Shown piece after piece: positions 11,742 through 54,390 of a stretch of 64,000 bases of DNA. The stretch comes from Corallium rubrum (Eukaryota; Cnidaria; Anthozoa; Scleralcyonacea; Coralliidae). Made by a program: the position numbers and the translations under genes. Position 1 is the first letter of the stretch. Every line of letters begins with the position of its first letter. Below the pieces are notes generated by a model that ran no database searches, was not told where the DNA came from, and worked only from the letters and a program-made list of their open reading frames with translations. The stretch is from positions 25,869,442-25,933,441 of the forward strand of contig OZ035998.1 of the NCBI GenBank assembly GCA_964035015.1, written 5' to 3'.

Positions 11742-12743
11742 GGCTCTCCGAGAGGCGCGGGGGGAGTTGAAAGAGAGCCTGCTACTGAAGTAGTAACATT
11801 TTGGATTTATGCGTACAGATCGTACGCAAAATTCCCATTCGTAATCCCTTTTAATTAGTAACTTGTTGCGGTATTTTGCAGAAACACAAGGCCTAGACGC
11901 TCTCAAAGGTATTTTTATGGTTCTGGTAGTCATTTAATCAGTGCCGTGATATTTTGCTGCCGATGGGCTTTGATGTTGACGACTTTTGAATGATTCCGAG
12001 GGGGAAAGAGGCGAGTGTGAAGTGGTATGGCATACTGCACGCGGCATCTTGTCAGTTGTGGAACAAGATGGCTAGTAAATTCAGAATTAGTCATCACTAA
12101 AATATATTGTGTACGTATGTCGTCACATGTTGAATTAGCTTTCATTTGATGTATAGTTCAAGTTTCTCCGTTAAGTAAAACTCGTTAAAATGTCCACAAT
12201 GCGCGAACCGATGTTCGAAATAATATTACAAATAAACAGGAAGTTGACTTGTCACAAGTGTTAGTACAGAATTTTAAATGATATAATAAATGGGACACAT
12301 ATCAAACAGAAGCTATTGAAAAATGCTATTTGGGAAATATTTATAAAATGGGAAAACGTCGTTTATTTGATTCATTGCGTGGATGATTCACTAGAACACA
12401 TTCACGCAATGAATCAAATGAACGACGTTTCCACATTTTAAAAATATTTCCCGTTTAGCTAAAAACTAGAAATTTCTATCCCAAATAGCATTTTACAATA
12501 GCTTCTGTTTGATAAGTATCTCATTTGTTATTATATCATTTAAAAAAATCTAAAATTCCCATAAAAATACCAATTAGTTGAGAGCGTCATGGCCTGGTAT
12601 TTCTGCAAAATATCGCACCAAGTTACTAATTAATAGGGATTAGCCAATGGGAAATTTGCGCAAAATCTGTACGCATAAATCCATAAAATTACTGCTTCAG
12701 TAGCAGGCTCTCTTTTAACTCCGCCCACGCCTCTCAGAGAGCC
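11742..12743. mobile_element. Fold-back element with long inverted arms, ~1.0 kb
   Basis: The left end, GGCTCTCCGAGAGGCG then GAGTTGAAAGAGAGCC, is mirrored at the right end. The arms run about 200 bp inward, including the GGATTTATGCGTACAG and GAGAGCGTC-type stretches. At the centre (about 12272-12545) a second palindrome has GAAAACGTCGTT mirrored by AACGACGTTTCC. No domain is recognised in the short ORFs, and the target duplication is not clear. The superfamily is unknown. Confidence 0.7.
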
Positions 12744-13184
12744 AGCGGCCTGCTTATCCCTTTCCGGGAGGCGGGAAACTTGCAGGCGGAGGAATGGCCG
12801 CATGTAAAAAGCCGGATTTTGTCTTTTTCGTCTGATTGGTCCATAAGACAAAAAAGCCCGAAAAACTCTATTTGGTTTCTGTACATTTATAAATACGAAT
12901 TATGATTTACATAATTAACAATGCGTCTAACGAATCTTGGGATTCAACGATGTCACAGTCTCACGGACGATGTTTAGTTAGAGAAGTTTAATTAAAGTTT
13001 AAAAAATCTAAAGAAAGAACAGCGCGAATGTATAGAAAGAGTCCTGTTTAATGAGGATGTGCTATCTGTACTCCGTACTGGTTATGCCAAGAGTTTAATA
13101 TACCAACTTCTCCCAAGCGTCTACGGAAAGAGTTATAAGAGACGTATAATAAAACACGTACTGCGAATGTTTTGAATAGCTTAA
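12744..13184. other. No recognised gene
   Basis: AT-rich spacer between two inverted-repeat elements, with no supported ORF or exon. Confidence 0.4.
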
Positions 13185-13836
13185 GGTTACAGGATACCCT
13201 AGGAAGCCATTTCAAGAAATTTGTTACTGCTCGCTCAATTTTTTTCCGATTTGTCTCAAATTTGCAACCAATATAGTTAAGTATGTAACGGACACTATCG
13301 TACTATACAGTAAATAAGAAATAAAATATTGTTGCAGATATACTCATCAGTTTAAAATCACAGTACTTTCGCGCCGCGGTTTAAGGCGGTCTTTGGTTTT
13401 ACCAAAAAGCTCTCAATTTATCATATTTACACTTCTCAATGTCTGTTCTAAAAAAGGGTGTTCGCATTTTTTTATTAATGTAGTGGTTTAGCAGCTAGGA
13501 TATTTTATTTCTCGACCTATGTTGTGGCACAAGCAATTGACAAATAAAAGCCTGTAACTCACTTTTTTAGAACAAACATTGAGAGGTGTAAATATGATAA
13601 ATTGAGAGCTTTTTGGTAAAACCAAAGACCGTCTTAAACCGCAGCGCGAAGGTACTGTGATTTTAAACTGATGGTATATCTTCAACAATATTTTATTTCT
13701 TATTTACAGAAAAATACGATAGTGTCCGTCACATACTTAACTACATTTGGTGCAAATTTGAGAGAAATCGGAAAAAAATTGAGCGAGCGGTAACAAATTC
13801 ATTTCTTGAAATGGCTTCCTAGGGTATCCTGTAACC
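13185..13836. mobile_element. TTAA-flanked palindromic element, 652 bp
   Basis: The ends are GGTTACAGGATACCCTAGG and CCTAGGGTATCCTGTAACC, with TTAA at 13181-13184 and 13837-13840. The inversion continues through GAGAGCTTTTTGGTAAAACC and beyond, so the whole element is a near-palindrome. GG...CC termini and TTAA duplication point to a Kolobok-type non-autonomous element. Its right TTAA is also the left target copy of the autonomous Kolobok element that follows. Confidence 0.82.
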
Positions 13837-14128
13837 TTAAAGGGACATTCTACCCCCAAAACAAGTGGTGTTCATATGAAAGGTCTATATGTACTTACTT
13901 TGGAATGGGTATTCATTTCCTTCAAATCTTTTTGGTTTTCGAGAAATTTGACTTTGTTTGTCGTATTTTTGACACACTGTATGCCGCCATGTTTGCTTTG
14001 CTTGCGGGTGAAAGCGGTCCCTCCCATTAGCGTTTTGACGTCATTGAGTGATAGAAAGAAATTGTCCTTCGACAGCGTGGTGTTTATTAGCATAAACATC
14101 TTTGGTTTATCGATTTATACTTTTTACA

Positions 14129-14314
14129 ATGCCTCATTGCATGGTGCCCGGCTGCACAAATAATTCACGCAAGACTGTGGGAGTAAGTTACCATCGACTT
14201 CCTGCGGATGATCGACTGCGACAAGCCTGGCTCGCCAGAATTCGCCGTACTAATCCACGTTCGCGCAACAACTCGTTTGTTTGTTCGGAACATTTAAATG
14301 TAAAATGTAAATGA
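14129..14314 (+). CDS. THAP zinc-finger domain of Kolobok transposase (partial)
   Basis: The reading frame from the ATG at 14129 gives a THAP-type C2CH domain. C4 and C9 lie in PHCMVPGC, followed by the conserved YHRLPAD proline segment, the RQAWLARIRR tryptophan helix, and the C-x2-H pair in VCSEHL. THAP domains bind transposon ends in Kolobok and P-type transposases. The frame stops three codons after the last lysine-rich residues. An intron, or a frameshift near 14300, probably joins it to the acidic linker around 14329-14775. The usual Phe after the CxEH pair is Leu here. The ATG is chosen because CxxxxC starts at residue 4, as is typical. Confidence 0.8.
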   Translation: MPHCMVPGCTNNSRKTVGVSYHRLPADDRLRQAWLARIRRTNPRSRNNSFVCSEHLNVKCK

Positions 14315-14494
14315 AATGCAATTCACCGATGAAGATCTTGGGCTGGCGAGTATCGAAGAATGCAGATCGTCTGAAGGTACTTGTACTGATGCTCCTTTAG
14401 TTTTATCCTTTGCTGTAGACTGTGACCCATAACAACTACAACTGATACTGAGACCCAATGTGAACTGTTAGTAAGACCAACTAGAAGTATTGAA

Positions 14495-16230
14495 GTGCAA
14501 ACGGAACCTGTACTTTTTGCCTGTCAAACAGATAACAACCCCCCAAGTCCACATAAAGTTGCACATTCTGCTGCTGTTGACCATTGTTATAGCCATAAAA
14601 CTCTGCCTTCTTCACCCATTCCTTCTACAAGTCAAGCTCAGTATATATCTCCATCAAAAAGCATTTCTTCAGGGCCAGTTGATTCAGATTCTGATGGAGA
14701 TAATACTGAGGATATTTACTTGCCTGGTTCTGCAGACAGCCAATCTGAAACAGAAGCTGATAATGAGCCAGATCGGAGCCTCCTGCAACAGAAAAGGTTA
14801 TTGTGTTTAAAGAACAACTCGATAAGCTTTTTGTCAGTTGTTCCACTTGTGGTAAACCCATAGCTGAAAGTTCAAAAACTCTTGTTGGTAGTATGGTTGT
14901 GGCAAAATCATCATGTATTGATGGCCATGATAAAACGTGGCAATCGCAACCCATGATTCATGGAAACGTTGCAGGAAATATGATGATTGCAGCATCCATA
15001 CTCTTCAGTGGTAATTCATTCGCAAATGTAAATTCACTGGCATGTCGCCTCAACCTGGCTTTTATAAGCAGTGCTCTCTTCTATAAAATACAGAAGAATC
15101 ATCTATTTCCTGTGATCGAGAAGACTTGGAAAGAACACCAAGATAACCTGTTCGAAGAGATAAGAAAATCAAATAAATTAGAAGTGTGTGGAGATGGCAG
15201 AAGCGATAGTCCTGGACACTGTGCAAAATATGGTGCATATACAATAATGGACGAAAGCAGCAGTAAAATTATTGATTTCAGTGTCGTGCAAGTTACTGAG
15301 GTGTCTTCATCTAATGCTATGGAAGCCGAAGGGTGCAATCGAGTCCTCCAAAATATGAAGGCAAAAAAAGTAAAGGTGAAGTGCTTGACAACTGACAGAC
15401 ATGTTACAATTACATCTGAGATGAAGAAGAAGCATCCTAAAATCACACACCAGTATGAGTATGATGTATGGCATCTTGCTAAATGGGTGGTCAAGAAACT
15501 AACAAAAAAGGCCAAGAAGAAGGACTGTGCAGACCTAATGACCTGGATACAGTCTGTATCAGCTCATTTCTGGTGGAGCATATCAACATGTGAGGGGAAT
15601 CATGACCTACTCATTGAAAAATGGACTTCCATTGTTCATCACGTTGGTAACAAGCATTCATGGAGAAAGTCAAAGATCTTCAAGAAATGTGTCCATCACA
15701 AGCTTAAAAGAAGAGAGGTGAAAGCAATATGTTGGCTCAAACCTGGAACCGCTGCACATGTGGCATTGGAAGAGATTGTCTTCAACAGCCGACTGTTAAA
15801 GGATATGAAGTTGGTCACAGAATTCCATCACACTGGTAATCTGGAGGTGTACCATTCCATGATGCTGAAATACTGTCCCAAAAGACAGCATTTTAGTTAC
15901 GAAGGAATGGTTGCTAGGACACAGTTAGCTGCCCTTGATAACAACAACAATTGTACAAGGGAGCAAGCCGTGATCCAGCATGGTGAATCAAAAGGCAGTC
16001 TACGGTACAATGTGGTCTTTCCAAAAGTTCGTAAGACATGGGTGGTCAAACCAATAAAACAGCCGAAGACATATAGTTACCTAGATGACATGATGGAAAG
16101 AGTCCTGAAAGGTGATGAAGTCGATGGAGCCTGCAAGTCTACGCCATTTGCCAAAAATATTGCTACAAAACCTATGCCGAATAAATCAGCAGCAATTGCA
16201 AGCCACATCAGCAGATTTAAGCAAAAGTGA
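14495..16230 (+). pseudogene. Kolobok transposase: acidic linker and DDE catalytic domain
   Basis: An Ser/Asp/Glu-rich segment (14495-14775) is followed, after a frameshift near 14775, by a 475-codon frame (14803-16230). Near its start is a zinc-binding-like CSTCG. The DDE-type core shows GDGRSDSPGH (first Asp around residues 131-135), TTDRH (second Asp, about residue 198), DVWHLAK, and LEVYHSM (candidate Glu, about residue 348). The GDGR.DSPGH..KYG.YT.MD and TDRH..I blocks are typical of cnidarian and fish Kolobok transposases. The protein would cut and paste the element at TTAA. The core is open to the end. Only the upstream joint is broken, so an intron cannot be excluded. Catalytic residue assignment is by motif position only. 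Confidence 0.82.
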
Positions 16231-16519: not shown

Positions 16520-17376
16520 TCAATTTTCCCCATCCGACGCTTCCCTATGCCCAGCAAACACATGTTCATCTTCTGGTCCAGGAGGTGGAAAATGCGCTCT
16601 AATACAGCTTACTGCACAAGAGGGAAGCACAACTCTTATGTGCCTTCCAAGTACTCCCCAGCCTAATCGTGCAAGTTGTCTATAGCAATATGCTATGTTT
16701 TTGGTGTTCTGGTCCTTCATAAGCATTCTCATACTGTTGCTTATACTGGTACCATGTTGTTCGAAGAACCAACTGATTCAAACACACAGCCGAGAATCCA
16801 GGGTTATCAGTTATGCAAGAAATATTTGTTTTTAATTTTTCGAGGACCACCGCTTCTTCGTTGAGGGAGATCATCTCGGGGATTTCTTGGCAACAAACAC
16901 ACTCTACCACTGCATCCATCATTTGACAATTGCCACACTGACACCTAACGTTACATTAAAGCATACAAACGAAATCACCTTGCAACAGTCTTATCATTTT
17001 TCTTTGCTCGCAAAGTGAAGTCTTTATATTTATATTTATTGATATTTATATGTATGCATTTAAATTTGAAGAAGTCCGAATACTCGATTATTTATAAATA
17101 ATTATGGTCACATTTTACAAGAGATTATGTTGTTGTTTTAACTTACCATTCTAGGTTATCCAAACGGCTTTCGTCAACGGATGAATCCAAGTTTTCTTCG
17201 TCAGTAGAATCATCAGAACTAGACGTAGACACTGTTTTGGTGGGCTCAAACTGGTAGGGCTGTATCGAGTCGATAGAGTACTCCGCTTCCTTGGCTGGAC
17301 TACCTGGACTATTTGAACGGCACGACATTGCCATGGTATCCTCATTGTCGGAAGAGCTACTACTCGATCCGGACAT
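16520..17376 (-). pseudogene. P2X7 C-terminal (ballast) domain protein carried by the Kolobok element
   Basis: Exon 1 (17376-17147) encodes MSGSSSSSSDNED, a Ser/Asp-rich stretch and PYQFEPT, ending at donor GTAAGT. The intron is about 202 nt. Exon 2 starts at 16944 after ...CGTTAG. Splicing restores LEWCQCGNCQMM, then ECVCCQE, the CITDNPGFSAVCLNQLVL block, and YRQLARLGWGVLGRH, RVVLPSC, CIRAHFPPP. These blocks (WCxCGxC, ECxCC, HP/NPGF..VCLN..VL, YRQ..RW..G.LG, VVIPSC, IR..FP) are those of the zinc- and nucleotide-binding ballast domain of P2X7 receptors, here without any channel segments. One-base frameshift near 16700 separates the CLN block from the YRQ block, so this copy is broken. The start at 17376 is preferred because the upstream ATG (17412) lies inside the terminal repeat. 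Its role in the element is unknown. Confidence 0.78.
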
Positions 17377-17569
17377 TTGTATATTTCGAGCATTCGCCCG
17401 CAAACAAAGCAAACATGGCGGGCATACAGTGTGTCAAAAATACGACAAACAAAGTCAAATTTCTCGAAAACCAAAAAGATTTGAAGGAAATGAATACCCA
17501 CTCCAAAGTAAGTACATATAGACCTTTCATATGAACACCACTTGTTTTGGGGGTAGAGTGTCCCTTTAA

Positions 17570-19721: not shown

Positions 19722-21272
19722 CACAGAATAAGGATCAACCAGAAGTCCAACTCGCGGAAAAAAGTGTCCCATTATTTTTATGCGCATGCGCCAGTCGGCC
19801 ATTTTGAAAGTAAGTGCACCCGGGAAATTATCCCTCTCGTCCTTACGACCCTCGGGCTCCTGTATTCAATTACTCTCGGCCTTCTTGTGACCTTTTATTT
19901 AACTTTATATTGTTATCTGTACATATATAAATAATATTTATTAAGTAATAAGTAATTTACTTCAGAAAACATTTCGTTGGAGATGAAATTCTTTGACCAC
20001 AAGGTTATTAAAACTTCAGTACGCGGATACTACGGGTAAAAGTCCGTGGCAAAAAAGTCCTGTACTCACGAGCTGAGTTTAACATTTCTCGATGATGTCG
20101 ACACACTTGTTTATAGAGAAAGATGGCTAAAAAATTCGGAACTACGCATTGTTCAAATACATCGAGTACGTATGTTGTTAGAAATTTTATAAGCTTTCAT
20201 TCGGTATATCGTTCAAATCATAGTGTTTCCTGTAACTTTTTAAAATGTTCAAAATGTTCAAAATGTTCTGACCATTGACCATAAAAGTTTTAATATTTTT
20301 TCATATATTCAGAAGGTATGATTACTAATTTGCACCAAAAACGTTTTCAACTTCAACTAGAAATTTGCAAACTTTTCCACTCATTTCGTATTTGAATTAG
20401 CTTCTGTTCAAGAAATATCTTAGGTTCATGCCGGAAGTCTTTCTGAGGTTATAGCAAACACCAAAACAACAAAAGGCAAAACAAACTTAAGAAATTCATC
20501 CATTTCAGACGGTCCACGTCAAAATAATGATGGTTTTTTTCATATTTTAAAATATTTCCCAGCAAGAAAATTAAAAGTTCTGACATGAATAGCACTTGAC
20601 AACACCCTTTGTTTAATATCTTGTTCAGGGCAGTGCGTTTAGTATTTAAAATCCAAAATTCTATAGCACTTGTGAGGAGTCCATTTCCCATTATACAATT
20701 CTTATTTTACGAACAATGGTGAGAACATTTTGAACATTTTAAAAAGTTACAGGTAACACTAAAACTTAAATTATATACCAAATGAAAGCTTATAAAATTT
20801 CTAACAACATACGTACCCGATGTATTTCAACAATGCGTAGTTCCGAAATTGTTAGCAATCTTTTTCTATAAACAAATGTGTCGGCAAAATCGAGAAATGT
20901 AAAACCCGCTTCATGAGTGCAGGACTTTTTTGCCACGGACTTTTACCCGTAGTATCCGCTCACTGAAGTTTTAATAAGGTCGTGGTCAAAGAATTCTATC
21001 TCCAAAGAATCGTTTTCTAAAGTAAATTATTTTTTTACTTAACTAAATATTATTAATACAGATAGATAACAATATAAAGTTAATTAAAAGATCACAAGAA
21101 GGCCAAGAGTAATTGAATACAGGAGCCCGAGGGTCACAAGGACGAGAGGGCTAATTTCCCAGGTGCACTTACTTTCAAAATGGCGCCGGGATCGCGAGGC
21201 CGACATTTCCCGAGGACGCTTACATCAAAGGTGCCGACAGAGAGTTGGACTTCTCGTGATCCTTATTCTGTG
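19722..21272. mobile_element. Long-TIR fold-back element A (CACAG ends), 1,551 bp
   Basis: The termini are CACAGAATAAGGATCA and TGATCCTTATTCTGTG, flanked by a perfect 7-bp duplication CCGCGGG (19715-19721 and 21273-21279). The inverted arms extend about 550 bp inward, with shared blocks such as AAGTAAGTGCACC, TTGAATACAGGAGCCCGAGG and GAAAGCTTATAAAATTTC. No domain is recognised. It inserted into the GC-rich tail of the hairpin-tailed repeat, since GCTCCGGGCCTTCGGCCC follows on the right. A 7-bp duplication with CA ends could suit P-type or other superfamilies; the class is open. Confidence 0.82.
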
Positions 21273-23397: not shown

Positions 23398-23404
23398 GGT
23401 CGCA

Positions 23405-23991
23405 TTGCAGGGCCCTTCGATAAACCTCCGATCGCAAACCTTCACGTCAGTCGCTTCGGTGTTATTCCCAAGAAATCTGCTGCGAACGCGTGGCGCCTTA
23501 TCCTGGACTTGTCCTTCCCCGAAGGAAACCGTGTTAATGATGGCATTGATCCAAATGTGTGTCAAACGCAATACTGCAAAGTCGACAAACTAGACATTAA
23601 GAGTGCCTACCGCATAATACCTGTTCATCCACAAGATCGATTTCTGCTTGGAATGAAATGGCGCGGAAAATTCTATGTCAATTTAGTTCTTCCATTTGGC
23701 CTTCGATCGGCCCCATTCATTTTCAATTCGTTTGCAGACATGCTGCAATGGTTACTGCGAAATAACTATTCAATACAGGATCTTATACACTACTTGGACG
23801 ATTATTTTACGCTTGGTCCTGCCAACAGTATTCAGTGTGCTACTAATTTAGCGAAGATTAAGGACACATGTGCTCGCTTAGGCATTCCGTTAGCCCCGGA
23901 AAAATGTATCGGACCTACAACGTGTCTTGTATTTCTAGGAATCGAGCTAGATTCTGTGAAACTATGCGCGCGCCTTGGCGGAACTTCGTAG
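23405..23991 (+). pseudogene. DIRS reverse transcriptase
   Basis: The frame from about 23405 reads GPFDKPPIANLHVSRFGVIP and WRLILDLSFPEGNRVND. It then passes to motif A LDIKSAYRIIPVHPQD, LPFGLRSAPFIFNSF, and the catalytic HYLDDY box (about 23800). LGIELDS marks the end of the thumb. About 25 residues normally present between QYCKVD and KLDIKS are missing, suggesting an internal deletion. The frame ends at 23991 by frameshift. Confidence 0.85.
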
Positions 23992-24074
23992 CCTAATCCG
24001 ACTGTGGCAACGCAGGAAGTGCTGCACCAGGCGGGACCTGGAATGGGTAAACTACAACACGCATTGCAAGTATC

Positions 24075-24730
24075 GTGGTTCGTCCCAGAAGAACCTTCCT
24101 ACGTAGAATTATAAACGCTCTTCGTGGGGTACGACGACCCCATCACTTTATTCGACTCTCCCGTGAATGCAAGCTTGATATTGCCTGGTGGAATGAGCTT
24201 CTCGCGGACTGGAACGGTGTTAATTTTTTCGAATTACCTCAATGGGAGATGGCTCCAGATCTGCACATATCTACCGACGCTTCTGGCAAGTTGGGTTTCG
24301 GTGTCGTCCATAACAATGCGTGGTTCAATGGTACTTGGTCTCCTGCTCAAAGACCACTGGGTATCGCCTACAAAGAGCTTATTTCCCATTGTCTTAGCGT
24401 GTGCGATATGGGGGCCATCGTGGCAGCAAAAAAGGGTGCAATTCCAGTGTGATAATGAAAGCGTAGTAGCCGTGCTACGTACTGGTTTCATCACGGGAGG
24501 ATAACATTATGCATTTGGTCCGTTATCCGTTTTTTATTACCGCCCGTTTTAACTTTACCGTGAGTGCTGTACATGTACCTGGGAAACAAAATGCTATCGC
24601 TGATGCACTGTCCCGCTTTCGATTGCAGGAATTCTTCCGCCGGGCTCCGTCAGCGTCTCCCACTCCAGTCGCCGTTCCACAGCTGCTGCTAGACCGATTG
24701 ACCTCCAATTTCTCCAACACCGTACTCTAA
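24075..24730 (+). pseudogene. DIRS RNase H domain
   Basis: Three frame pieces give WWNELLADWNGVNFF, the first catalytic Asp in HISTDASGKLGFG, the Glu in YKELISH, the DNESVVAVLRTG segment, and the final Asp block HVPGKQNAIADALSR. The piece boundaries at about 24450 and 24500 are frameshifts or stops. This matches RNase H of DIRS elements. It is inactive as a continuous protein. Confidence 0.8.
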
Positions 24731-24735
24731 CCTTT

Positions 24736-25664
24736 ATGGGACAGGGTATAGCCTCAGCTACACGACGAACATATTCTACTGCTCAGAAACGGTTCACTGA
24801 CTTCTGCTACCGAACTAACCAGCTATCACCATCAGGATTTCCATGCCCAGCATCAGAATGGACTTTAATGTTATTCGCCACACACTTGGCCGGGTCTGTA
24901 CATGCAAACTCCATCAAGGTATAGCTAGCCGGCGTGAGGTCTCTACACATTGAGCAAGGGTTCCGTAACCCATTGGAAAATTGTCTAAGATTGGAAAGAG
25001 TGCTTCGAGGTATCAAACGCACCCATGGAAATTCAACATCAGCAAGACTTCCAGTGACGATAGATGTACTGAGAACACTACGGTCACAACTAGAACTGAC
25101 GCGGTATGACGATATATTGTTTTGGGCAGCCTGCTGTCTTGTTTTTTTTTCGGTTTCCCTCGGTGTGGGGAATTCACCACGCCCACGTGCAGTTCCTTCA
25201 ACAAAGATTACCACCTAAGTATCGACGACATTTCAGTAGATCGACACATTTCACCTAACTACATGATGGTGAAGATAAAAGCATCCAAAACCGACCCGTT
25301 CCTCAAAGGGGTTACACTTCGCCTGGCAGCATCTGGCTCCTCAATCTGCGCGGTGAGAGCAGTACTCCAGTTCCTCCACGCCAGAGGGAATGCGGCAGGC
25401 CCCCTCTTTATCCAACGGGACGGTAAACCTCTGACTAGAACAACTTTATCCAGATGGCTACAGAGCACAGCGAACCGAGCAGGCCCCAAAGGAACTTTCT
25501 CGGGACACAGCTTCAGAATTGGGGCAGCCACGACTGCCGCGCTGGCGGGGATTCCGGACCACCTTATCAAAACCCTGGGACGTTGGGAAAGTAATGCCTA
25601 TCAACTGTACATTCGAACACCGGCACGTATTTTGGATAATGTTCCGTCGGTACTGACACGATAA
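24736..25664 (+). pseudogene. DIRS tyrosine recombinase
   Basis: The N-terminal core-binding part reads RRTYSTAQKRFTDFCYRTN and later SLHIEQGFRNPL. The catalytic part (25122-25664, 180 codons) contains RCGEFT (catalytic Arg), KASKTDPF (beta-hairpin Lys), GHSFRIGAAT (His-x-x-Arg), GRWESNAYQLYIR (Trp at the second His position, then the nucleophile Tyr). All catalytic positions are present. Frames change near 24920 (an in-frame stop in IKV*LAGV) and near 25150, so the enzyme is broken upstream of an intact catalytic half. It would have inserted the circular cDNA. Confidence 0.85.
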
Positions 25665-45838: not shown

Positions 45839-46456
45839 AACTTTCTCGCAACGACCCTACAGACCGTAAGTGGTTCAAGTCTTTATGTTGATCTTCCATG
45901 GTTATAAAACTCCATCCATAATAACTGGTGACACATACCGTCCAGACTTGCTCCTATCAACTCCAAGTGGATGCCTCTACATTGTTGAACTGACTGCTGG
46001 TTTTGAGTCAAATCTTCAAAACGACGTCGATCGTAAAAAATCCAAATATTCAGAATTGATTAGGGAACAGAGTCAAAGTGAACAATTCAGATCAGTTAAA
46101 TTTGTAAACCTATCGATTAGCTGCCTTGGTGTCTTTGCAGCAGAATGTTCTACATTCATAGAAATGCTAAATGATCTTAATCTTGACAAGACTCATCAAA
46201 AATATTGTATTAATAGAATGACGACGATCGCAATCCGAACCACCTATTACATATTCTGTTGCCGAAACAAGGAATGGACAAATCCTGAACTGCTAACTTT
46301 TTTAAATTATTGTGCTGTATATTTGTTTTATGTTGTTATATATAGTTATTAGTTATATATTGTTAGTGTTGATTCAAGTAGCCGCTTGTAAATTACCTTA
46401 AATAAGCGAGATTTACAATTGTATATTATCTAAAAAGACATTTAATAAAGTTTCCA
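45839..46456 (+). pseudogene. 5'-truncated LINE: restriction-like endonuclease end, copy 1
   Basis: The frame 45870-46352 reads PSIITGDTYRPDLLL, then IVELTAGFESNL, DRKKSKYSELI, FVNLSISCLGVF and TTYYIFCCRNKEW. RPD...(I)VELT..FE...RK..KY is the PD-(D/E)xK restriction-like endonuclease at the C-terminus of R2/R4/Dong-type LINEs. The RT is absent. The 3' end is AATAAAGTTTCCATT running straight into an ATT array. It is nearly identical to 55850-56438. Confidence 0.8.
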
Positions 46457-46481
46457 TTATTATTATTATTATTATTATTAC

Positions 46482-46535
<54 letters not shown>

Positions 46536-46550
46536 CATTATTATTATTAT
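46457..46550. repeat. (ATT)n array
   Basis: About 94 bp of ATT units with single ACT and ATC interruptions follow directly after the LINE 3' end. Confidence 0.95.
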
Positions 46551-46591
46551 TATCTAAAAAGACATTTAATAAAGTTTCCATTATTATTATT
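46551..46591 (+). repeat. Orphan LINE 3' tip
   Basis: ATCTAAAAAGACATTTAATA then AAGTTTCCATT repeats the last ~30 bp of copy 1, followed by ATT units. It is either an extremely truncated insertion or a slippage duplication of the tail within the array. Confidence 0.75.
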
Positions 46592-47912
46592 ATTCAAATC
46601 TGAATTATATGACACACTGACTAATACCATGAATGAAATCGACGAACTACCATTACATCCGAAAAACAAAATTCTAATGTACAATCGCTATGTTCTTTCA
46701 AAAATCTCTTGGCACTTCACCGTTTCTGATATCGGTAAAACCTGGGTAAACGAGAATCTAGATAATATCGTGTCAAAATATATCCGAAAGTGGCTCGAGC
46801 TTCCAATTTCAGCAACTCTTAGCAACGTCCTACTTCCTCATAACAAATTCGGCTTAAATCTCATTCTCCCATCAACTAAATTTCTTCAATGTCAAACTAT
46901 ATCTCGGAAAGTTTTGAAATCATCACCAAACGACGAGATCAAAAACCTATGGATGGCCACAAGCAATCACAAAAATGTACAATATGACAAGTACAAAAAC
47001 ACAAAAGACGTACTGAACACTATCAGGAAAGAAAATGAAAAAAGGCTTCAAAATCACCTCATTTCACAAGGTTCATTCTTCTCCAATATCATCAAATACT
47101 CTACACTCTCGCTCAACTCTATATGGTCCTCGGTCCAAAACAAACTTCCTAAGAATATCTTTAACTTCACCATCCGGTACATAAATAATACGCTCCCAAC
47201 TCGCAAAAATCTGTTGAAATGGGGAATATCACCAACATCCGACTGCTCTTTCTGCTTGGAACCCGAAACCTTGCTCCACGTCGTCAATGGATGCAAGACA
47301 TACCTAAACGAAGGACGTTTTACGTGGCGACACGATTCCGTTCTTAATTTCATTGCAACCTCTCTTAAATCCGTACAACACTCTATTAACCTTTATGCTG
47401 ACCTACCTGGCTTCATCAGTCCATCTGTTATCACCGGAGATAAGTTACGCCCTGATCTTCTGATAACAATCGAAAACAAATACATCTACATACTCGAACT
47501 GACTGTTGGATTTGAATCTAATCTTCTTACTAATGCAACCCGTAAGAGACAAAAATATCTAGAACTTATTAACGAACAGCACAAAAATTATGAAAAAGTG
47601 AAATTTATAAATTTATCTATCAGTTCGCTTGGAGTTTTTAATCAGTCATCTATAGACTTTATTGAAATGCTGAAAGACCTGAAATTTGACGAACGATGTA
47701 GAAAGTACTATACTCAGAAAATGATGAACACTTGCATAAGGGCCTCTTACTATATATTTTGTAAACGTAACAAAGAATGGGATAACCCGACTTTAATGTC
47801 ATACTAATATTTTTTATACCATTTGTTAATTCAAGTAGACATTGGTAAACTACCTGTAAAAGAGAGGTTTATCATTGTAGTATACGTAAATCATAAATAA
47901 ATAAAGTTTCCA
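46592..47912 (+). CDS. 5'-truncated LINE with zinc knuckle and restriction-like endonuclease, copy 2
   Basis: The open frame runs from the edge of the ATT array (FKSELYDTLTNTMNE) through 392 codons from ATG 46629 to the stop at 47805. Visible parts are: RT thumb and linker (NKILMYNRYVLSKISWHF); INNTLPTRKNLLKWG; the CCHC knuckle CSFCLEPETLLHVVNGC (about residues 200-216); RHDSVLNFIA; and the endonuclease RPDLLI..IYILELTVGFE with TRKRQKYLELI. The RT catalytic core is missing, so it cannot retrotranspose alone, but no stop or frameshift is seen. This is the best preserved endonuclease frame here. The 3' end AATAAAGTTTCCATT enters an ATT array. Confidence 0.83.
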
Positions 47913-47970
47913 TTATTATTATTATTATTATTATTGTTATTATTATTACTATTATTATTATTATTATTAC
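47913..47970. repeat. (ATT)n array
   Basis: ATT units with one GTT and one ACT interruption separate LINE copy 2 from the next element. Confidence 0.93.
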
Positions 47971-48271
47971 AATATTATAGTTATCAGTACGACCGACAAG
48001 TTACACGACCGACATGCAAGGCAAATTCTGACTTGTTTATAAGTTTTTAAGATGAAAGCTTAGCTAATGCGGTAACTATATAAAGCAAGAAGTGGCGAGG
48101 AAAGAAATACAGTGAACAGAAAATCGTTTAAAGGTCAATTTACAGACGCTATTAATAATAAGACCCATTGCTGAACCCAAAATGCCGCCGAAGAGAAAGG
48201 ATAAAATATCAGGAAGAATTAAATAAAAATGTAAACGACGTCGAAGCTATTGAAATGACAAGCGAAGATAT

Positions 48272-50074
48272 TTGCATAAACGAACATGCAAATACAAGCA
48301 ATCAAAGTCCAACAGTGTCAATAGATCAATTGATCCAGAAAGCCAGGATCGTCAATCAGTAACCACTAATGCAGATACGGGGCAAGCCGATTTTCGATGG
48401 GATGAAATAAATGTGAATATATTTTGTCAAGGCATAACGAAAGCTTATGAAGAAATAGTGCACTGGAAGCGTAATAATTTTCTTGTGCCTTCAGGAAAAG
48501 CAGGTAAATCTTTCATAAGAGAATTGGCAAGATTATACCAATCGTATGCCGATAATGCTCCGCTACAATGTATTGCACTGAAAGCTTGCTCAGTCATGCA
48601 AAGTCTATTATTGCAAAAGCCACATGCAAAAAGCAAAGCAAAAGAACATACAACCCATTTAGAACGGCGGATGAAACTCTGGGCTCAAGGAGATATTGAT
48701 GGCTTACTGCATGAAGGAAAATGTATCCAAAAGCATCTTAAATCAAATGCTAGTGGAACAAATGAGATAGAGAAGATTGCAAGAGGCTTTAATCGCTTGA
48801 TGTTACAAGGAAAAGTTCGTCGAGCTACTCGTCTGATTTCCAGCGCAGATAACAGAGGTCTTCTGTCAATCGATGAGCTTGTACCCATTGGAGTTGATGA
48901 AAATGGAAATACCACATATCAAACCACCCGGGAGATACGGATGCAGAAACATCCTGAAGGTAAAGTTCCACCGGCAGAAGTACTTCTTGAAGAGACACAA
49001 AATGAAGACAGCTATTATGATCCCACCATCTTTGAACGCATAACCGGGGATACCATTACACAAGCGGCAAATAGAACACAGGGAGCAGCTGGTCCATCCG
49101 GGTTAGACGCACACGCGTGGCATCGATTCTGCTTTTCGTTTATAAGCGCCTCTGTTGATTTATGCAATGCTTTGGCTGGGGTGGCACGCCGTTTGTGTAC
49201 ATCATCTGTTCAACCTGAAAGTGTGTCCGCATTTGTTGGTTGTCGCCTAATCCCACTGAACAAGAATCCCGGCGTAAGACCAATTGGCATTGGGGAAGTT
49301 CCAAGAAGGATTATTTCAAAATCTATCCTAAAAGTGATTGGTCAAGATATCCAGTCAGCTGCAGGCCCCCTACAATGTTGTGCTGGTCACGAAGCAGGTT
49401 GTGAGGCTGCCGTTCATGCCATGAAAAAAATTCAAGAAGCAGATGAAACAGAGGCGATACTTCTGGTCGATGCTGAAAATGCATTCAATACGATTAACCG
49501 ACAGGCAGCTCTACATAATATCAAAGTTATATGTCCTGGTCTATCAACTGTGTTGACCAACACCTACAGCAAACCAATCAGATTATTCGTCACTGGAGGA
49601 GGAGAAATTCTATCCACGGAGGGTATAACACAAGGCGACCCATTAGCAATGGCTATGTATGCACTGACCATCACTCCACTAATTAGACGATTAAGAGAAA
49701 AAGTACAAGATGTAAAGCAAGTGTGGTTCGCTGATAACTCTACCGCTGCAGGAAGAATCCAAGCGCTGCGAGAATGGTGGCAACATCTCACAACCATGGG
49801 CCCTAAATTTGGCTACTATCCAAATCCTGGTAAAACTACTCTGGTGGTTAAATCAGAATTTTTTGAGGAAGCGGCCAAAGAATTTGAAGGGACAGACATT
49901 GAATTGACAGTAGCAGGTCAGAAATTACTTGGTTCCGCAATTGGCACAGCAACCTTCATTGAAGAAGGTGTAGGAGACAAAGTGGAAGAACGGACTGATG
50001 AGATTGTAAAGCTTGCCAAATACCTGAAATATATCCACATTCAGCATATGCTGCTTTTACTCATGGCATTGTAG
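48272..50074 (+). pseudogene. LINE reverse transcriptase with FADN active site
   Basis: A 600-codon frame. Visible motifs in order are PGVRPIGIGEVPRRIISK, motif A LLVDAENAFNTINR, motif B EGITQGDPLAMAMYAL, motif C WFADNSTAAGR, and GPKFGYYPNPGKTTLVVK. Motif C should be F/YADD. The second catalytic aspartate is AAC (Asn), which by family knowledge abolishes polymerase activity. It begins upstream in another frame (48168-48362, SIDQLIQKA). It ends near HAAYAAFTH-type sequence by a frameshift at about 50060, and the frame 50091-50630 continues with LTGRDQCSREVRKLLSLP and RHGGLNITNL. Confidence 0.85.
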
Positions 50075-50090
50075 GGAAATGGATACATAA

Positions 50091-50596
50091 ATGCAAACCA
50101 ATCAAAACATTGGTACTTTACTGCATCCACTAGAAGATGCTATAAGTGAAAATCTAATTCCAGGCTTGACTGGTAGGGATCAATGTTCTCGTGAGGTAAG
50201 GAAACTTCTTTCCCTACCAACACGTCACGGAGGACTTAACATCACAAATCTCGTACTCAAAGCAGATCGCCAATTCACTGCATCGGAAAAAATCAGCGAA
50301 CCATTGAAGAAGATGATCATAGACCAGACTGAATGGTTTGAAAAGCCACAATTACAAAATATCAAAGCAAGTCTGCGTAAACAAAAGAACCAACAACTTA
50401 AAAGCGAGGCTAAAGAAATCAGAGAGAGTCTACCCATGCAGAAGCAACGAGCAATGGATCTTCTTGGTGAAAAAGGCTCATCATCATGGTTAACGGCTTT
50501 ACCAATAAAAGATCAGGGGTTTAGCCCTAATAAAGGCGAATTTCGGGATGCCATTAGCCTAAGATATGGATGGCAACTGAGAAATATACCGCATAA
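50091..50596 (+). pseudogene. LINE post-RT linker
   Basis: The frame continues the same polyprotein: NQNIGTLLHPLEDAI, SREVRKLLSLPTRHGGLNI, KGSSSWLTALPIKDQGF and FRDAISLRYGWQLRNIPHK. These precede the CxCG-x-F-..HA..C knuckle in this LINE group. The next residues are displaced by a nested LINE fragment. Confidence 0.75.
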
Positions 50597-50925
50597 GAAC
50601 GGGATCACAAATTATGGAATAAAGTTGTAAGCAACCCTGATAATCCGCTAAACGAGCTGTTACCGCCTCAGAGGACAAGGTGTTTGAGAGAGCGCAACCA
50701 CAATTATACTTTGCCCAAAGTTAGAACTGAGAGATTTAATCGAGTATTTGTTAACAGATGTCTTTTTGAATTTTAGATATGTGTTGTTGACATCAGTAAT
50801 CTGTATGTTACCTTCCTTTACTTGTAAATATTGGCCTAAATTCTTGTGATGTACATATTTTAACTGTAAAACTCTTACGTTTGTTAAGGGTTATTTTCCA
50901 TTAAAAAGACTAAAAAGACTATTAA
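50597..50925 (+). mobile_element. Nested 3' end of a CR1/L2-like LINE
   Basis: The insert reads LWNKVVSNPDNPLNELLPP, RNHNYTLPKVRTERF and NRVFVNRCLFEF-stop, then an AT-rich 3' UTR ending in AAAAAGACTAAAAAGACTA. It sits between IPHK and YCICGVSFSADHAM of the host LINE. A candidate TAAG duplication lies at its edges. Removing it in mind restores the expected order of the host protein. Confidence 0.72.
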
Positions 50926-51454
50926 GTACTGTATCTGTGGAGTAAGCTTCTCAGCTGACCATGCCATGACCTGCCCACACGGAGGACTTATTATTGCCCG
51001 TCACAACGAGATCCGTGACCTAACTGCAGATTGGCTGAGTGAAATCTGTACTGACGTTGAGAAAGAGCCACAGCTGCAACCTCTTAGTGGAAAGATTATT
51101 CTTCCAAGAACGGCGAACAAACGAGAAGATGCCAGAGCTGATATAAAACCAAGGGGTTTCTGGGGTCGGCGGCAATGTGCATATTTTGATGTAAGGGTAT
51201 TTCACCCCAACGCACCTAGCTACCGTAACACCAGCATCCAAGCCTTATATAGAAAGCAGGAGCAAGCAAAGAAACGGGAATATGGTGACAGAATTAGGGA
51301 AGTTGAGAATGCCTCTTTCACACCCTTGATATTTTCCACCACTGGCGGGCTCAGTAAAGAGACGTCAACAGCAAACAAACGTATGGCCGAGCTGCTGGCA
51401 ACCAAGAGAATCACTGAATACAGTGGATGCGATGTTCTCTTTCGTTTGCACTAA
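50926..51454 (+). pseudogene. LINE knuckle and restriction-like endonuclease
   Basis: The stretch starts with CICGVSFSADHAMTCPHGG, a CCHC-type knuckle, followed by RHNEIRDLTADWL. The endonuclease has ARADIKPRGFWG, then AYFDVRVFHPNA, RKREYGDRIREVE, SFTPLIFSTTGG. In this group the D of A(R/D).DI and the FDVRV segment take the PD-(D/E)xK positions. The domain would nick the target DNA. The frame is open from 50966 to the stop, about 160 codons. Confidence 0.78.
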
Positions 51455-51769
51455 TTAGATCAGCCGTGGCATGCATAAGAGGCACTAGAGTATCCTCGTC
51501 AAGACATGCATTGGAAACGAACATAGACCTTAGCTGTGGAGAAAGTATTATCTTTTATTAAATCTTTCTTTCTTTTATTAAATCTAAGTATTATCTTTTA
51601 TTTTATTTAAATCTTTTATTTGACTCTAGTTTTTAGTTTTTATTATTTGCCTCTATATAGTTTTAGCCTTTTAGTCATTACTAATTGTATAAACGATGAA
51701 TTCGAACAGACTTGATTTTATCCGAATATATACTGTAAATATAATATTTTATGTTAAGCGTTAATAAAG
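51455..51769 (+). other. LINE 3' UTR
   Basis: Non-coding AT-rich tail with TTTATTAAATCT repeats, ending GCGTTAATAAAGATG before the ATT array. Confidence 0.6.
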
Positions 51770-51987
<218 letters not shown>

Positions 51988-52122
51988 TTTGTGCTTCACA
52001 CCATTAGTTGGTATAGGTGGTAATTAGCCTAGAGCATCAAGCTATTTCCCATAGCCTCAGGTGTCCAGCAAACAAGCCTTTTGAAGTAGATCAATGTTTA
52101 CAGATGCTCCAAGCTTCGCAAC

Positions 52123-52602
52123 CTAGGACTTCAGGTTTTTGCTCACTGTACCGAGTGCTCCAATTACAATAGGGATAACAGAAATGCGTCTGCAGTTCCA
52201 GATCTTTCGAACTTCCATTTTTAAATCCTGATAATGCTCAATCTTCTCCCTTTCCTTCTCTAACACTCGTGTATCGAAGGGACAAGCAACGTCAATAATC
52301 GCGCACACTCTTTCTTTCTTTTCGAACACGACAATATCAGGTCTGTTATGATCAAGATGGCGATCTGTCTGAACTTTAAAATCCCACAAAACCTCCGCTT
52401 GCTCGTTTTCTATCACTGCCCCTGGGACATGGTCATACCAATTTTTGCTACACAGAAGACTGAAGTTCTTGCAAAGGTCCCAATGGATAGCTTGAGCTAC
52501 CTTATCGTGTCTCCAGTTCTTGTACTGATTTTCTGCAAGCTTCTTACATTCGGCCACTATGTGGCTCACAGTTTCCTCCCTCTCTCCGCACAGTCGACAC
52601 AC
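52123..52602 (-). pseudogene. LINE knuckle and restriction-like endonuclease domain
   Basis: The 159-codon frame starts with the CCHC knuckle CRLCGEREETVSHIVAEC, then NWRHDKVAQAIHW. The endonuclease holds LWDFKVQTDRHLDHNRPDI, VCAIIDVACPFDTRV, KEREKIEHYQDLKMEV and VIPIVIGALGTV. RPD...IIDVACP is the PD-(D/E)xK core of R2/R4-type LINEs. The frame is intact, though the upstream RT is broken. Confidence 0.85.
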
Positions 52603-52684
52603 TGGGGATACATTTGGTTTGTCAACCTTACTCTTTATGTAGTTTGTTCGGAGGGCTTGGTCTTGTGCCGCAGTTAGTAGACCT

Positions 52685-54390
52685 TCAGTCTCCTTCTTCA
52701 GGGTTCCCCCTCTTTAACCAATTCCATGACCATGGGCCTCTGACTTCTTCAGTGCCCCTAACAAACTGCCCATGCAATGCCATTTCTCGATATCTGTTTA
52801 ATCTCTTTTGTCCTACTCTTTCCTTCTCCTCTCTTTCATCCAAGATATTTTCATTCTTAACAGTCATCAGCAATCTTTCATGACTAGCTTCCACATACTG
52901 TGATAAACTGCCAACTTCAACATTAACACAGTCCTCAACGCTTATCAACCCTCTTCCTCCTTTTGATCTCTTGACATAAAGTCTGTCTACATCTGCTTGT
53001 GGATGGAGTGATCTGTAGATGGTCAGCAGCTTTCTTGTCTTTCTGTCCAGCACCCTTAGCTCTTCCTTACTCCATTTAATGATTCCTGCCCCGTATCTTA
53101 TCAATGAAACGGCTCTTAAATTTAAACATTTCCACTTTTCAACTTTGATTTCAAAATCTTCCTTATCCGTCTTAAATATTTCTTGGATATAAGTTCCTTC
53201 ATGTCGCTGTGTTTCATACCATCCGCCCCCAATATTCCAAGGTACTTATACCCATCTCCTTCTTCCAGTCCTCTGATGACTTGGGCATCTGGCAAAACAA
53301 TGCCTTCACAGGTAGATACCTTTCCCCTCTTCAAAATCAATACAGCACACTTACTAATCCCAAATTCCATTCCAATATCCTTACTAAAGATCCGGACAGT
53401 GTTCATCAAAGTGTCAACTTGTTTCTCATTCTTTCCGTATAATTTTAAGTCATCCATAAATAAAAGGTGATTTAGGAGACCATTCCCATCCCGCACGTCG
53501 TAACCAGCTTCAACTTTCCTTAGCACCATAGACATAAGGATCAGGGCCACCACAAATAACAGTGGAGATAGACTACCCCCCTGAAAAATTCCTCTCTTTA
53601 TATTTACGGTCCCCAGGGTCGGCCCTCCCGCAGTTAATTCCATTCTGTTTTCCACCGATTCATGCTTTTTTCCAGAAGTGCGATCATATTTCCAGCTGCT
53701 CCAAACATATGCAAGCATTTAATGATCCACGAGTGCGGGATCAAGTCGAATGCCTTTTAATAGTCTACCCACGCCATTCCGAGCCGAGTTTGTCTGCTTT
53801 TGCAATTTCTAATAACCATTTTATCAATTAGCAGCTGATCTTTCGTGCCCCTCGACTTTCGTCTACAACTTTTCTGTTCTTCAGGTAACAGATTCTCCTC
53901 CTCCAGGTGTTTATACAACTCATCCCCCATTATGCCAGTAAACAATTTCCACATTGATGGCAAACATGTTATTGGTCTGTAATTTGACACAATGTTCCCC
54001 TTTTCCTTATCCTTAAGGATCAGTGTTGTCCTGCCTCTAGTGACCCATTCAGGCACTTGGTTCGTACCCAAGCAAACCTGCAGCTGCATTGCTATTCTTT
54101 CTGTGCATGATGTGAAACTTTTCAACCAGAACCCTTGCAAACCGTCAGGTCCTGGAGCTTTCCAGTTTGGTCACCATTGCTGGTGTTATCTCAATGTCAT
54201 TCTGCTTCTTCACCTCATTTACTTCACTCTCCAATTCTTTCAACCAATCAGCATTACTGTTGTAATCTATCGGGTTATCCCAAATATTGGCCCAAAATGT
54301 CTTGCTTTCCTCTGCGTCTCGTATCACAGTGTTATCTGTATCCACGTTCTCAAGCTGCTCAAAAAGACGTTTCTGGTTTGACTGGAACAT
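52685..54390 (-). pseudogene. LINE reverse transcriptase (three frame pieces)
   Basis: Piece 1 (54390-53757) has the pre-RT region DNPIDYNSNADWLKELE, then [19 protein letters not shown] and CLPSMWKL. In motif A, WVDY is followed by TAA and then KAFDLIPHSWI: one base change turns the Lys codon into a stop. Piece 2 (53718-53122) has motif B KRGIFQGGSLSPLLFVV and motif C LLFMDDLKLYGKN. Piece 3 (53104-52685) has YGAGIIKWSKEELRVLDRKT, TIYRSLHPQADVDRLYVKR and GGRGLISVEDCV. Catalytic Asp residues are kept. Confidence 0.85.

Follow-up and report, generated by a model that had tools for sequence, protein, structure and literature searches.

A defective Kolobok-type transposon of Corallium rubrum with a second gene of the P2X7 ballast type

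Background

Kolobok elements of the Kol0 lineage encode a transposase together with a second protein, KolX, as described by Kojima and Bao in 2022 (PMC9587614). The same paper describes KolX as similar to residues 476-595 of human P2X7 and assigns it the ballast fold. Here we describe an element of this type in a 64,000-nucleotide stretch of Corallium rubrum (contig OZ035998.1, positions 25,869,442 to 25,933,441; hereafter the window). The identity of the element and of its ballast gene is almost certain. Taken as a whole, the element is probably a defective Kol0-type Kolobok DNA transposon with two genes, in which KolX is an accessory protein most likely aiding transposition.

A P2X7-ballast-type gene inside a Kolobok-type element had been proposed in a preliminary description of the window. 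Our analysis supports it, and it corresponds to Kol0 with KolX in PMC9587614. Since the link between Kolobok and P2X7 was published in 2022 (PMC9587614), this reading is sound and is no discovery. In the literature searched, no further paper linking Kolobok to the P2X7 ballast turned up; PMC9319628 mentions Kolobok and P2X7 once each, and the available text of the Xenopus Kolobok paper PMC6004289 has no mention of KolX, Kol0, a second open reading frame (ORF) or an accessory protein.

Structure and classification of the element

The element spans 3,725 bp between both TTAA copies and ends with 5'-AG...CT-3' (Table 1). Its terminal inverted repeats shared 96.7% identity across 180 aligned columns, with the TTAA counted in, and differed at two of the outer 149 positions. 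The terminal motif, searched with at most three mismatches, was found in the 64 kb just at the two element ends (mean of 0.01 in 100 shuffled sequences), and the window contained a single copy of the element. The inverted termini and TTAA duplications described before were thereby confirmed.

Classification as Kolobok is based on the TTAA duplication, on 5'-RR...YY-3' termini and on a DDE transposase with C/DxxH between the second D and E. The terminal rule separates Kolobok from piggyBac (PMC9587614). The motif is also found in hAT, P, MuDR and Dada (PMC9587614) and therefore fails to single out Kolobok when taken alone. A second gene with the ballast fold, the feature of Kol0, was present as well. 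The superfamily piggyBac, raised by the TTAA, is contradicted by the RR...YY ends and by the transposase blocks.

A foldback element of 660 bp (13181-13840), 86% self-complementary and with TTAA at each end, is located directly to the left. Its right TTAA is the left TTAA of the Kolobok-type element, so that one of the two was inserted at the edge of the other.

Table 1. Features of the Kolobok-type element in window coordinates
Feature	Position	Strand	Remarks
Left TTAA target-site duplication	13837..13840	.	also right end of foldback element 13181-13840
Left terminal inverted repeat	13841..14015	+	begins AGGGACATTCTACCCCC
THAP domain, transposase start	14129..14314	+	Pfam THAP E=1.4e-13; 48% to THAP-bearing P0166 and P0178 over 60 residues
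Transposase middle piece, frame differs from DDE core	14456..14809	+	tblastn with P0121, 41%, E=4e-16
ORF with transposase DDE core	14767..16230	+	homology 14791-16227; 76% to P0121
KolX exon 2: ballast domain with frameshift near 16686-16711	16520..16944	-	Pfam P2RX7_C E=2.7e-11, read-through with X at the lesion
KolX intron (predicted), GT-AG	16945..17146	-	GTAAGT...GTTAG, 202 bp
KolX exon 1: acidic, serine-rich start and IQPYQFEP block	17147..17376	-
Right terminal inverted repeat	17390..17565	-
Right TTAA target-site duplication	17566..17569	.

The transposase gene

The THAP domain begins 114 bases inside the left terminus, and its frame runs into a stop shortly past the CSEH motif. The transposase as a whole is divided by reading frame into at least three pieces. 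Splicing could occur between these, so that the count of true breaks is uncertain.

The ORF with the DDE core contained the blocks GDGR(C/S)DSPGH, TTDRH, DVWH and ALEE, with two additional residues ahead of DVWH. At E <= 1e-3 the core had 335 homologues, 120 of which were listed; the match to P0121 reached 76% over 98% of the query. Among 18 aligned relatives D317 and D384 were invariant, and D405, H408 and E508 were kept in at least 90%. The transposase of the window carries the same blocks as those holding these residues, and by our own reading the five columns are the putative catalytic residues. Two of the four relatives scanned passed the Mutator-like Pfam cut-off (P0166 and P0205) and two carried THAP on the same protein as the core (P0166 and P0178).

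The ballast gene

The ballast gene, here referred to as KolX, is orientated opposite to the transposase. Its start codon (17376) lies 14 bases inside the right terminus and its stop codon at 16522-16520. Splicing was predicted from the sequence and from relatives: the exon junction creates WCQCGNC, the first zinc motif, which aligns with WCxCxxC of the relatives. Both the spliced gene and its orientation are as previously described.

Near 16686-16711 the frame of exon 2 switches, as the relative P0001 aligns in two successive frames. The gene as it stands therefore codes for less than the whole ballast domain. When the lesion was read through with an X, Pfam P2RX7_C scored 44.2 bits against a curated cut-off of 23.5. 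Left unbridged, one of the two pieces had no Pfam match and the other scored 17 bits, below the cut-off. The read-through score and the seven zinc cysteines (see below) both place the gene in PF20478. Of the P2X7 C-terminal blocks listed in the preliminary description, WCQCGNC was recovered at the exon junction, and the domain matched on read-through; the frameshift that interrupts the domain was absent from that description.

The termini are nearly identical despite the broken ballast gene and the fragmented transposase. This points to a copy that was defective before it moved and would have been mobilised by an intact copy elsewhere. Alternatively, gene conversion between the termini would give the same picture.

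Homologues and conserved positions

In total, 239 proteins matched KolX at E <= 1e-3 (top match 7.9e-67), a likeness far above chance, and the nearest relative shared 78% over 61% of the query. Among the best 120, named homologues were found in Montipora, Porites, Acropora, Oculina, Xenia, Exaiptasia, Batillaria, Ruditapes, Ostrea, Saccostrea, Tubulanus, Antedon, Ptychodera, Saccoglossus and Corythoichthys; many others were nameless. We take these genera to represent corals, a sea anemone, molluscs, a nemertean, an echinoderm, hemichordates and a pipefish. Searches of viral contigs (KolX, transposase and terminal motif) and of prokaryote contigs (transposase and KolX) confirmed no relative, and little was expected there for an animal transposon.

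Conserved positions were analyzed in an alignment of these 120 KolX-type proteins, an uneven sample because they were chosen as most similar to the window, and 19 P2X7-type fragments. The zinc-binding cysteines were assigned by motif match. Each of the seven was conserved in 98% or more of the sequences having that position, and the KolX of the window has C at all seven.

P2X7 numbering and the nucleotide contacts of rat P2X7 (R546, H547, R574, R578 and K583) were taken from PMC7016195. In the KolX-type proteins R546 was kept in 117, H547 in 115 and R578 in 116 of 120. The damaged copy of the window retains only R578, the R-H pair being absent at the lesion. The full set of five was thus found neither in the relatives (three of five) nor in the window copy. 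These contacts vary even within vertebrate P2X7 (PMC7016195) and are therefore no strict feature of membership. According to the available text of PMC7016195, H547 is absent from the invertebrates treated there; in our alignment the position was H in 9 named cnidarian proteins and Y in 4 named molluscs.

KolX matched the P2X7 ballast fold only, and no catalytic signature was noticed. A single-sequence phmmer search against the PDB missed P2X7 and returned two weak rows of UBR4 (E 0.42 and 0.43), so a profile was required. Foldseek against viral structures gave no match at E <= 0.001, and no P element structure was present among the rows of KolX structure matches.

Relation to P2X7

P2X7 has been proposed to originate from a P2X4-like gene fused with KolX, and Nanor is likely a domesticated KolX (PMC9587614). 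KolX and the ballast tail of P2X7 are related, with capture from such an element as the published explanation. The preliminary description had raised such a capture from a transposon as a possibility and agrees here with PMC9587614.

It had also proposed a tree of ballast domains, which we built with FastTree from 140 domains (120 KolX-type, 19 P2X7-type fragments and the window; midpoint root, no outgroup). The P2X7-type fragments were mostly nameless and were assigned by Pfam PF20478 and likeness to the query. They formed one clade with a support of 1.0; its stem measured 1.66 on the P2X7 side of the root, compared with a median distance of 1.65 among 18 named KolX-type proteins. Nearest by distance was a clam protein, to which we give no interpretation. 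Having no outgroup and a KolX set picked by likeness to the window, the tree gives no reliable indication of the donor of the P2X7 tail.

Proposed function of KolX and alternative explanations

In the proposed mechanism, the ends would be recognised by the THAP/DDE transposase, which would carry out cut-and-paste movement at TTAA. KolX would be an accessory protein composed of an acidic, serine-rich N-terminus, modelled at low confidence, and a zinc-held ballast fold. The gene starts lie 114 and 14 bases inside near-identical termini, so both genes may share promoter sequence and may be made together. KolX most likely aids transposition as a member or a regulator of the transposase-DNA complex, perhaps via a bound guanine nucleotide.

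Several observations weigh against this. The linkage of KolX and transposase is known here from one copy and beyond it from PMC9587614, on whose report the regular company of KolX and such transposases rests; the available text of that paper contains no experiment on KolX. The window copy is unable to produce an intact ballast protein. Its DDE core stayed below every Pfam cut-off (best GemA, E=0.038), as did the nearest relative P0121. Of the nucleotide contacts, R574 is V in 118 of 120 KolX-type proteins and K583, in a gapped stretch, is E in 112 of 120. Nucleotide binding by KolX is uncertain since these two of five contacts are not kept.

KolX could instead serve the element by host protection or by regulation of expression, e.g. 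by binding host chromatin or RNA, and take no part in the transposition reaction. The acidic, serine-rich start, modelled at low confidence, would be compatible with a regulatory partner; the ballast fold was the sole fold match, and we noticed no catalytic signature. The analysis gave no positive evidence for such a role, which we regard as possible but less probable than an aid to transposition. A more specific proposal, which we consider improbable, would make KolX a guanine-nucleotide-binding subunit in its own right, working in trans with the THAP/DDE transposase in end pairing and 3' end placement as the GTP-binding insertion does within P element transposase; P2X7 would have inherited its GDP/GTP pocket from this cofactor. 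The proposal is based on the three conserved contacts out of five.

That a host gene or fragment was trapped once by this copy, and is no regular part of the element, is highly improbable. The single copy in the window would fit such an event, and stand-alone ballast genes have been described in animals (PMC7016195). However, PMC9587614 gives KolX as the other protein encoded by Kol0 elements, and the start codon of the gene lies right at the terminus. No repeat pair bracketed the ballast gene among those shown (20 of at least 60 direct families and 25 of 170 inverted pairs), so there was no sign of a separate insertion with its own ends, which the preliminary description had considered. Moreover, the nearest relatives of both genes are similarly distant (78% over 61% of the query for KolX, 76% over 98% for the transposase), a shared contig not being established.

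Other repeats in the window

Two long inverted repeats, perhaps foldback or MITE elements, were found at 19798-21184 (462-nt arms, 87%) and 11742-12743 (98-nt and 65-nt arms, 88-89%). On the plus strand, 23398-25661 contained a reverse-transcriptase piece (23398-23988) followed by a match to Phage_integrase, a tyrosine recombinase (25110-25661); this gene order is that of a DIRS-like retroelement. Reverse-transcriptase-related ORFs were located at 46449-53715, with zf-RVT at 46449-47804 (+) and RVT_1 at 48254-50071 (+) and 53122-53715 (-).

Comparison with known systems

The closest described system is the Kol0 lineage with its representative Kolobok-1_XT (PMC9587614), which has TTAA, RR...YY ends, a DDE transposase with a C/DxxH-type motif and a second protein with the ballast fold, all as found here. 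In contrast, the genes are broken in the window copy; the comparison is with the lineage as described in the text of that paper.

The P element transposase shares THAP and RNase H with the present one. GTP is required for pairing and placing its ends and is bound by an inserted, nearly all-helical domain (PMC7776569). As to the guanine-nucleotide cofactor, the likeness is no more than a possible parallel. In the P element the GTP-binding domain lies within the transposase itself, the duplication is 8 bp and the available text mentions no ballast protein (PMC7776569).

Nanor and other stand-alone ballast (ZCD) proteins are short, with a C-terminal ballast and no membrane segment, like KolX, but are treated as host genes in PMC7016195, whereas KolX is borne by an element.

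The role of the P2X7 ballast sites has been described as unknown (PMC9859053). From an independent sequence, and by fold, the present element backs the published proposal that a relative of one part of a vertebrate immune receptor is carried by a transposon, and the near-invariant zinc, R546-H547 and R578 positions suggest that the biochemistry of KolX could inform P2X7 as well. The P2X7 ballast domain (PF20478; PDB 6u9v, 8tr5, 9e3m and 9e3q) has the fold, the seven zinc cysteines, R546, H547 and R578 in common with KolX, whereas KolX has no channel part and does not keep R574 and K583.
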